The notes beneath the pieces are model-generated. The model was not told the origin of the DNA and did not search any database. It saw nothing but the letters and a program-made list of their open reading frames with translations. From Natronoarchaeum philippinense (GTDB lineage Archaea; Halobacteriota; Halobacteria; Halobacteriales; Natronoarchaeaceae): a stretch of 64,000 bases of DNA. The position numbers and the translations under genes were made by a program. This document shows, piece after piece, positions 40,685 through 42,018 of this stretch; the stretch's first letter is position 1; every line of letters begins with the position of its first letter. The stretch is from positions 496,001 through 560,000 of the forward strand of contig NZ_OBEJ01000001.1 in NCBI RefSeq assembly GCF_900215575.1. The letters are read 5' to 3'.

Positions 40685-41329
40685 ATGGACCGGGCGCCCG
40701 AACGAGTGCGCGACACGTACGACGACATCGCAGAGCACTTCGCGGCCACCCGCGAGTACGCTTGGCCCGAGGTCGAGGAGTTTCTCGACGACGCCGACGG
40801 CGCGCTCGGTCTCGATATGGGTTGCGGTAACGCCCGCCACGCAGAACAGATGGCCGAGCGAGTCGACCGAGTCGTCGGCGTCGACATCAGCCGCGGCCTG
40901 CTCGAAACCGCCCGCCGGCGTCGTACGGAGCGCGGCTTCGGCGTCGATCTGGTGCAGGGCGACGCGGGCTCGCTCCCGATCGCCGACGGCGCCGTCGATA
41001 TTGCCGTGTACGTCGCAACCCTGCACCATCTCCCCGACCGTGCGGCGCGACGCCGAAGCTTAGACGAGCTCGCCCGCGCACTCGCGTCGGACGGTCGCGC
41101 GCTCGTCTCGGTGTGGAGCACCGCCCACGACCGCTTCGACCGCACGGAGGGGTTCGACACGACGGTCGACTGGACGCTTCCGGACGGCGAGACGGTCCCT
41201 CGCTTCTATCACGTCTACTCGCCCGAGGAGTTCAAATCGGATCTGGACGCCAGCCGACTGGACACCGAAGACGTGTTCGTCTCCAGTGGGAACTGCTATG
41301 CGGTCGTCGCAAAAGGGAAACACCCTTAA
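40685..41329 (+). CDS. SAM-dependent methyltransferase, Trm9-like
   Basis: 214 residues. Motif I LGLDMGCGNARHAEQMA (about 39-55) and acidic VVGVDISRGLLETAR bind S-adenosylmethionine, with YVATLHHLPD after. The C-terminal TVPRFYHVYSPEEFKSDL and SSGNCYAVVAKG parallel the Trm9/ALKBH8 methyltransferases that methylate carboxymethyl-uridine at tRNA position 34. There is no ALKBH8 dioxygenase domain. It lies 318 bp upstream of a tRNA-Gly with anticodon UCC on the same strand; the functional link is an inference. Confidence 0.75.
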   Translation: MDRAPERVRDTYDDIAEHFAATREYAWPEVEEFLDDADGALGLDMGCGNARHAEQMAERVDRVVGVDISRGLLETARRRRTERGFGVDLVQGDAGSLPIADGAVDIAVYVATLHHLPDRAARRRSLDELARALASDGRALVSVWSTAHDRFDRTEGFDTTVDWTLPDGETVPRFYHVYSPEEFKSDLDASRLDTEDVFVSSGNCYAVVAKGKHP

Positions 41330-41647
41330 CCACTGCCCGAAAATCAAAGAGTGCACGCTGGTGTGGGCTAAATGGCCCACTTGGGATTGCGGTCGCGCGA
41401 TCCCCCGGGCGATCGTTCGATCGCCCGGTTTCAACAACACGTCACAGCACGTGCCAAAGCACGTCGTGACGAACGCGCCGGTGGTGAGCAGACCAACGGT
41501 CTGCGAACCTCAGGCGGGTATGCGAACGAGCGCCGGTGTTGAGACGGACGCAGTCCGTCGATGCACGGGGCGCGAACGACGTGAGCGCGCCGGTGGTGAG
41601 CAACCCTTCGGGTTGCGAACTACGGTGCGAGTGAGCAAAGCGAACGA
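41330..41647 (+). repeat. Structured repeat region upstream of tRNA-Gly
   Basis: 318 bp with no gene. First come three isolated hairpins: 41371-41380 area (GGGC/GCCC type), 41383-41404 (GGGATTGCG/CGCGATCCC) and 41405-41428 (a 10-bp stem GGGCGATCG-type with a TT loop). Then come three tandem modules beginning at 41475, 41530 and 41587, each starting GCGCCGGTGGT (one mismatch in the second), the same 11 bases as the tRNA 5' end at 41648. Exactly 13 nt after each start is a 7-bp stem with a 3-nt loop (41488-41504, 41543-41559, 41600-41616). Confidence 0.7.
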
Positions 41648-41718
41648 GCGCCGGTGGTCTAGTGGCAGGACCTGAGCCTTCCAAGCTCATGGCCCGGGTT
41701 CAAATCCCGGCCGGCGCA
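41648..41718 (+). tRNA. tRNA-Gly, anticodon UCC
   Basis: 71 nt folding as a full cloverleaf: acceptor GCGCCGG/CCGGCGC (7 bp), D-arm GTC/GAC, anticodon stem TGAGC/GCTCA with loop CTTCCAA (anticodon TCC, reading GGA/GGG), T-arm CCGGG-TTCAAAT-CCCGG, discriminator A. CCA is not encoded. No intron. Copies of both ends of this tRNA occur in the flanking repeats. Confidence 0.95.
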
Positions 41719-41791
41719 CTCCCTGCGGTCGCTTGCCGGCCGACGTTCACCTCGCTGCGCTCGGTGAACTCCCGGCCGGCGCATTTCTGCG
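41706..41791 (+). repeat. 86-bp direct repeat, copy 1 (begins in the tRNA 3' end)
   Basis: Begins with the last 13 nt of the tRNA (CCCGGCCGGCGCA) and ends with a second such copy at 41771-41783 plus TTTCTGCG. It contains the inverted repeat GTTCACC...GGTGAAC. One mismatch in 86 bp to the copy at 41933-42018. Confidence 0.85.
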
Positions 41792-41932
41792 ACGAACGGA
41801 CGTGAGGAGCGGATGCGCCACGGTGGAATTTGAACTACGCAAACGCGAGCGGTAGCGAGAATTTGCATCGGGTTCAAATCCCGGAGCGGCGAAGCCGCTC
41901 CGACCCTCGTGAACGCATGGCGTTCACTCGGT
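41792..41932. repeat. Spacer between the 86-bp repeats, with tRNA fragments
   Basis: No gene. It contains an exact 16-bp copy of the T-arm of the tRNA (CGGGTTCAAATCCCGG, 41869-41884; the same word is at 41695-41710). At 41814-41835 is an inverted, diverged tRNA 3' segment whose complement reads GTTCAAATTCCACCGTGG and then CGCA. Two perfect hairpins follow: GGAGCGGC-GAA-GCCGCTCC (41883-41901) and GTGAACGC-AT-GGCGTTCAC (about 41909-41927, one-base offset). Confidence 0.65.
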
Positions 41933-42018
41933 CCCGGCCGGCGCACTCCCTGCGGTCGCTTGCCGGCCGACGTTCACCTCGCTGCGCTCGGTGAACTCCC
42001 GGCTGGCGCATTTCTGCG
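41933..42018 (+). repeat. 86-bp direct repeat, copy 2
   Basis: Same as 41706-41791 except one C-to-T change in the terminal tRNA-3'-end copy (41998-42010, CCCGGCTGGCGCA). Downstream sequence to 42080 holds no further repeat or gene. Confidence 0.85.

Follow-up and report, generated by a model that had tools for sequence, protein, structure and literature searches.

Tandem hairpin modules at a haloarchaeal tRNA-Gly gene are probably copies of a miniature palindromic mobile element that duplicates tRNA ends

Rickettsia palindromic elements (RPEs) are small palindromic repeats that lie in frame within protein genes and are tolerated there; they are bacterial and longer than the modules described below. 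Insertion of IS200/IS605 elements makes no target duplication. REP/BIME sequences, which occur with RAYT (Y1 HUH) transposases, are short extragenic palindromes that form stable hairpins, are present in many copies and are probably recognized as a folded single strand. Haloarchaea do not feature in RepRanger, a survey that covers bacteria and archaea and in which tRNA appears only as a blot size marker (PMC12306157). Here we describe an array of palindromic modules next to a tRNA-Gly(TCC) gene of the haloarchaeon Natronoarchaeum philippinense, within the stretch of 64,000 nucleotides (64 kb) that constitutes the analysed window, and follow the same modules through the order Halobacteriales.

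Three modules precede the tRNA gene (Table 1). The first-pass annotation of the window had proposed that the first 11 nt of the tRNA recur at 41475, 41530 (with one mismatch) and 41587, and that a 7 bp stem with a 3 nt loop lies 13 nt past each start. Direct reading of the letters bore out both statements, with GCGCCGGTGGT at 41475 and 41587, GCGCCGGTGTT at 41530 and the hairpins GCAGACC-AAC-GGTCTGC, GACGGAC-GCA-GTCCGTC and GCAACCC-TTC-GGGTTGC; the periods are 55, 57 and 61 bp, matching the claimed range of 55–61 bp, and the last module abuts the tRNA as had been described. Each module follows one plan: the first 11 nt of the tRNA, TGA, a 7 bp hairpin with a 3 nt loop from offset 13, GA, an inverted copy of the tRNA end, and a spacer. 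The inverted copy in every module goes beyond the earlier description, as do mirror-image modules in the 3′ flank of the same tRNA. In module 3 the spacer is predicted to fold as a junction hairpin (GTGAGC-AAA-GCGAAC) that runs into the tRNA.

A covariance model built from relatives recovered exactly three modules from the window (E values of 1.5e-8 to 1.8e-4), with the next match at E 0.14. When the 400 nt upstream of the tRNA were resampled 20,000 times under a Markov model, three copies of the 11-mer (≤1 mismatch) appeared 0 times and two copies 3 times. Two further perfect hairpins lie between the promoter-like box and the modules, at 41363–41380 (GTGGGC..GCCCAC) and at 41405–41428 (CCGGGCGATCG-TT-CGATCGCCCGG); both are conserved in the sister species, and the one at 41363–41380 is also found in two other species of the family.

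Table 1. Positions of the tRNA-Gly(TCC) gene, its modules and its flanking features in the window
Feature	Position	Strand	Details
TATA-like, promoter-like box of tRNA-Gly(TCC)	41323..41329	+	CCCTTAA; conserved in relatives; putative promoter function
Module 1, type A	41475..41529	+	direct copy GCGCCGGTGGT (41475-41485); hairpin 41488-41504; partial inverted copy CCTCAGGCG
Module 1, covariance model match	41475-41517	+	36.1 bits, E 1.8e-6
Module 2, type B	41530..41586	+	direct copy GCGCCGGTGTT (one mismatch); hairpin 41543-41559; inverted copy CACGGGGC
Module 2, covariance model match	41530-41571	+	28.0 bits, E 1.8e-4
Module 3, type A	41587..41647	+	direct copy GCGCCGGTGGT; hairpin 41600-41616; inverted copy CGGTGC
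Module 3, covariance model match	41587-41628	+	44.5 bits, E 1.5e-8
tRNA-Gly(TCC)	41648..41718	+	ARAGORN; Rfam RF00005, 68.5 bits
tRNA 3′ end and downstream spacer	41705..41791	+	hairpin GTTCACC..GGTGAAC; ends in second tRNA 3′-end copy TCCCGGCCGGCGCA
Mirror-image 3′ module	41909..41945	-	hairpin 41909-41927; minus strand GA-GTGAACGC-CAT-GCGTTCAC-GA

The unrelated stems of the three modules had been read as evidence that pairing is preserved by compensatory change. From these stems alone the argument is weak, because modules 1 and 3 belong to one type (A) and module 2 to another (B); an order-wide alignment nevertheless upholds it. Among 61 distinct type-A modules, which align without gaps, 93.7% of pair cells were paired and 13 of the 18 pairs had changed on both sides, the GA columns 12–13 and 33–34 being invariant by construction as GA was a collection criterion. 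Doubly changed cells numbered 78 versus a shuffled mean of 14.5 (the observed value was reached in 0 of 500 shuffles), and sliding the partner by 1–3 columns lowered pairing to 27–48%. The compensatory change is thus real; the further step, from pairing to selection on RNA or on a cruciform, stands only in part, since selection on RNA is not the sole possible cause; mobility that depends on a hairpin, or repair by template switching (PMC8794818), could have the same effect. Compensatory changes in hairpins near tRNAs need not imply an RNA function.

Modules of this kind are widespread at tRNA-Gly genes of the Halobacteriales. In 97 of 162 genes the gene's initial 9 nt recur at −75..−48, against 2 of 162 in a control window of equal size 200 nt further upstream. 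Strict modules, combining the copy with a perfect hairpin, were found in 62 of 132 genes, and the hairpin started at offset 13 in 72 of 76; the corresponding figure for shuffled sequences was 5 of 2640. The second tRNA-Gly gene (CCC) of the N. philippinense genome has one module. In the sister species, modules 1 and 2 of the window align with the two modules of the CCC gene; the TCC gene carries none, its upstream sequence continuing directly into the tRNA, and copy number among close relatives varies from 0 to 3. The annotation would have abandoned its pattern had relatives lacked the modules entirely, and comparison of the locus showed that relatives do have them.

Several composite arrays (L277–L280, L341, L369, L379) have junction hairpins whose stems are unrelated in sequence (AACGC..GCGTT, CAGAC..GTCTG, GAGCCGAC..GTCGGCTC) and still paired. 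In tRNA flanks of many genomes there is also a recurrent hairpin tip, GA-(A/G)C-GNA-G(T/C)-GA, which amounts to tandem G-A mismatches with a GNA loop; hairpins of this construction are known to be very stable in single-stranded DNA. A kink-turn was considered by hand for the TGA/GA internal loop and rejected, as the 3′ strand past GA is unpaired where a K-turn needs its C-stem, and the loop was read as tandem G-A mismatches. A pattern scan of a contig collection gave mostly chance matches, with only three haloarchaeal records.

The position of the promoter-like box bears on whether the array is transcribed. In most module-free genes the box ends about 23–44 nt before the tRNA (23–41 nt in most such TCC genes), and in genes with modules it ends from 24 nt upward, mostly 24–73 or 24–75 nt, before the first module. 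The array starts near where the tRNA would start and is therefore probably transcribed, with the modules lying between promoter and tRNA. To this extent the suggestion of the first-pass annotation that the modules form a precursor element holds, and no further. Among the tRNAs of Hfx. volcanii, only tRNA-Gly CCC is reported to have an exceptionally long leader (300 nt), and a proximal start site is missing from tRNA-Gly TCC (PMC4983044); by analogy, we suggest that this 300 nt leader may be a module array.

These features might indicate a functional leader RNA, in which the modules would be mimics of the tRNA acceptor within the pre-tRNA leader and the inverted arm, by pairing with the upstream copy or with the 5′ strand of the tRNA, would steer folding or RNase P cleavage. 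Such a role would be consistent with the location of the array, with the preservation of both alternative pairings through covarying base pairs, and with the leader of the Hfx. volcanii CCC gene and the missing proximal start of its TCC gene (PMC4983044). Conserved presence would be expected of a leader riboregulator, whereas about 40% of the Gly genes (65 of 162) are without a module at −75..−48, the TCC gene of the sister species is module-free and copy number shifts between 0 and 3 among close relatives. As shown below, the same modules also follow tRNAs in mirror orientation and lie in frame within protein genes. We therefore consider a functional leader RNA rather unlikely.

Further evidence on the origin of the modules comes from the arms that flank the hairpin. 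Hairpin bodies for this comparison were found without reference to tRNA. For 74 of 94 bodies the preceding arm equals that gene's own tRNA over 7 nt, against a permutation mean of 36.7 and a maximum of 50 in 5000 permutations (genome relatedness was left in, and the permutation statistics ignore phylogeny). Among 29 cases in which a tRNA differs from the consensus, the direct arm shares the variant in 27, with position 7 (6/6) among them. For the inverted arm, complementarity to the tRNA variant was seen in 20 of 23 cases at positions 2–5 and in 1 of 6 at position 7. Because the direct arm follows the tRNA at position 7 and the inverted arm does not, the direct arm was likely copied from the tRNA itself and not merely maintained by pairing.

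The modules are not confined to tRNA-Gly. A search of 194 genomes for type-A hairpins, with no arm specified, gave 56 matches, mostly with tRNA-Gly arms; the other matches that were read either precede tRNA-Gln on its 5′ side (arms AGTCCCGTGGTG / CACGGGACT) or follow the tRNA genes for Ser, Asp and Gly on their 3′ side. The type-B search (391 genomes) gave 29 matches, among them tRNA-Glu with arms GCTCCGTTG / CTCGGAGC. A covariance model trained on Gly modules, and so favouring similar arms, was run over 59 genomes and had matches in 42, all five in the N. philippinense genome being at tRNAs. Forty matches away from the known Gly and Gln places were read in E-value order, not randomly, and 32 of them were at tRNAs (28 with a tRNA called by ARAGORN no more than about 700 nt away and 4 with an Rfam tRNA missed by ARAGORN). 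All 32 obeyed a single orientation rule, lying on the tRNA strand when on the 5′ side (11) and on the opposite strand when on the 3′ side (21); among the model's matches, same-strand modules were 5′ of Gln, Thr and Gly, and mirror images 3′ of Arg, Ala, Ser and Lys. Of the remaining eight of the 40, five lie within long open frames and two are intergenic; the last (L492) has the same frame open, with putative coding status. A covariance search had been proposed as a check, with random scatter of the hairpins through intergenic DNA counting against a tRNA link; the 32 of 40 sampled non-Gly matches at tRNAs show no such random scatter. A single body recurs at Gly, Gln, Glu and Thr genes, and in each case its arms match the tRNA concerned. 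As expected of a miniature mobile element, the modules occupy many unlinked sites, at Gly, Gln, Glu, Thr, Arg, Ala, Ser and Lys genes as well as in protein genes.

The combination of matching arms and shared bodies bears on replication template switching, in which palindromic tRNA ends would induce fold-back copying and thereby produce alternating direct and inverted copies and perfect hairpins, matched to the tRNA, with no mobile element. The process is known to create and maintain hairpins (PMC8794818), and it fits both the direct-inverted-direct alternation and the matching of arms to tRNAs. It does not fit position 7, where the two arms part company, or bodies A and B, whose near-identity at unlinked tRNAs and across families needs transfer in trans, and we regard it as very unlikely to have produced the modules.

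The 3′ flanks of tRNAs carry the mirror image of this arrangement. Downstream of the tRNA-Gly(TCC) gene of the window, copies of its 3′ end lie at +52, +214 and +279; the segment 41705–41791 is an 87 nt direct repeat of 41932–42018 (99% identity), which adds tRNA-Gly 3′-end copies. The hairpin at 41909–41927 adjoins a 3′-end copy (41932–41945), and its body was found only in reverse orientation in the 3′ flank. Read in reverse, the 3′ module is [tRNA 3′ end] GTGAGC-stem-loop-stem-GCGA [inverted copy], a plan identical to that of the 5′ module. Across the N. philippinense genome, the 3′ end recurs ≤400 nt downstream for 24 of the 45 tRNAs, the controls giving 1 and 0. By orientation and body counts in tRNA-Gly flanks, forward bodies outnumber reverse ones by 83 to 2 on the 5′ side, and on the 3′ side 17 are reverse and 5 forward.

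Comparison of relatives revealed occupied and empty sites that differ by exactly one element. At tRNA-Glu, two genomes of one genus (G050 and G029) share the whole tRNA and flanks identical at 380 of 400 nt upstream and at 75 of 75; one of the two has an extra 58 nt module between an existing module and the tRNA, flush with the latter. In the phosphoglycerate mutase (iPGM) gene of genome G065, a 54 nt in-frame insert (18 codons) lies between two 11 nt copies of CCGACGGTGGT. It is absent in relatives, in which clean empty sites read GACGGCACCGACGGCGGGCGA and similar; among the handful of homologues compared, most align to about residue 64–66 and resume at about 79–81. Direct target repeats thus border the element on both sides, being the 9 nt GCTCCGTTG at tRNA-Glu, the 11 nt CCGACGGTGGT in iPGM and the first 9 nt of the tRNA at tRNA-Gly. 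From the relatives seen, we infer that these differences arose by insertion and not by deletion.

In-frame palindromic inserts with the module body were found in at least five long open reading frames (L470, L472, L473, L479 and L495), and a protein form TDGGE..SRSSSD..SDGG recurs in five genes. The genes that bear inserts include phosphoglycerate mutase (L479 / L497, from G065), an SRAP-like protein and others, L495 being from G014. As in Rickettsia, the palindromic inserts keep the reading frame open, and the length of the iPGM insert (54 nt) is divisible by 3. In another genome (G051, L498), phosphoglycerate mutase has a different palindromic insert, GAGGTCGC-AAA-GCGACCTC, in the same loop.

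Differences of a single unit also bear on the possibility that the modules are attachment-site remnants of proviruses or plasmids that used tRNA ends. Archaeal integrases mainly target tRNA ends; those of the pTN3 type use the 5′ half, and the SNJ2 site is as short as the acceptor end (PMC8371274); in addition, a Natrinema megaplasmid has a module-bearing tRNA-Glu with an integrase gene downstream. Set against this are occupied and empty sites that differ by one unit of 54–58 nt and not by kilobase elements, and a hairpin body that different tRNAs and protein genes have in common. Between repeated tRNA ends there is no large element or integrase gene, the modules being mostly 50–70 nt with nothing else between the copies, and no module was found in the viral and phage collections searched. 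We consider integrase scars very unlikely. Viral contigs and phage records searched for A or B bodies, or for the array of the window, contained none, and a plasmid collection gave one record with a module, at a tRNA-Glu. This gene, on the Natrinema thermotolerans megaplasmid (L430, CP031304.1:173351-175816), has a type-B module, and the site-specific integrase gene lies about 130 nt downstream.

We propose that the modules are probably copies of a miniature, non-coding palindromic mobile element of the Halobacteriales that duplicates its target at tRNA ends. The proposal draws on the observed module anatomy, the arm–tRNA matching, the covariation, the mirror orientation, the one-unit presence/absence differences and the in-frame insert with its 11 nt repeat. 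The element would have a body of (G)GTGAGC-stem-GNA-type loop-stem-GCGA(T/G)CC, about 54–60 nt long, and would insert at short sites resembling CCGNTGGT, duplicating 9–11 nt of target. The sites have CCG-(N)-TGG(T) in common (Gly GCGCCGGTGGT, Gln AGTCCCGTGGT, Glu GCTCCGTTGGT, protein ACCGACGGTGGT), and the 5′ ends of tRNA-Gly (TCC, CCC), Gln and Glu would each contain such a site. At each insertion the original 5′ end would stay beside the promoter and a complete tRNA would be rebuilt downstream; the gene would survive because the target repeat rebuilds its 5′ end. The tandem tRNA-end repeats would then be target duplications and the hairpin the element itself, conserved for its recognition as a folded strand, presumably by a putative enzyme that moves the element in trans. 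Many other tRNA genes have a mirror-image version in their 3′ flanks, and protein genes contain a third version, set in frame. Of the three options put forward in the first-pass annotation, scars of repeated tRNA-targeted recombination came near this evidence, if understood as recurrent insertion of a palindromic element with target duplication, and a decoy for a tRNA enzyme found no support.

Some observations sit uneasily with a mobile element. Simple target duplication does not give an inverted arm that matches the tRNA at positions 2–5 (20 of 23 cases), and this match would need an extra assumption, either a guide role or later correction by template switching (PMC8794818). Insertions at tRNA 5′ ends persist order-wide and covary, which could reflect a host function, and the viral, phage and plasmid collections yielded no vehicle. 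With the array between promoter and tRNA an RNA role is possible, though unnecessary to explain the data. Tentatively, the arms might be a reprogrammable guide, whereby the folded single strand would pair with a tRNA end or a DGG-coding site and insert there, and changed arms would lead to new tRNA targets; we think this extension doubtful.

If correct, insertion of a mobile element would explain why haloarchaeal tRNA genes have copies of their ends on either side, and might also account for the 300 nt tRNA-Gly leader of Hfx. volcanii (PMC4983044). It would provide a natural example of an essential gene left intact by an insertion that duplicates its end, and the target-matched arms raise the testable question of how tiny elements choose and change targets. 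Were the guide reading also true, this would be a guide-directed, transposon-like system specialized on archaeal tRNA termini.

This family of hairpin insertions of about 55–60 nt at haloarchaeal tRNA ends is apparently undescribed; no description of such elements in archaea was found in the openly licensed literature, which is weak evidence of novelty. The modules resemble RPEs in also inserting in frame in protein genes; to our knowledge, RPEs do not copy tRNA ends or flank tRNA genes on both sides. They share with REPs the palindromic form, stable hairpin, high copy number and probable recognition as a folded single strand, but REPs show no tie to tRNA ends and lack arms that match the target. 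REP/RAYT systems are marked by a GTAG-type tetranucleotide at the hairpin foot and a linked RAYT gene; the foot of the module is GA on both sides (GA having been a collection criterion). Attachment sites of archaeal tyrosine recombinases are similar in that insertion occurs at tRNA ends and restores the tRNA, and 5′-half sites exist (pTN3) (PMC8371274); the modules differ in being hairpin units of 54–60 nt that also lie in protein genes and carry no integrase. Template-switch mutations likewise make and repair perfect stems without selection (PMC8794818), but do not spread one hairpin body among unlinked loci. Finally, in IS200/IS605 elements and their palindrome-associated derivatives, hairpin recognition together with base-pairing guide bases offers a mechanism that would explain the target-matched arms, from which the modules are set apart by their repeats of 9–11 nt.
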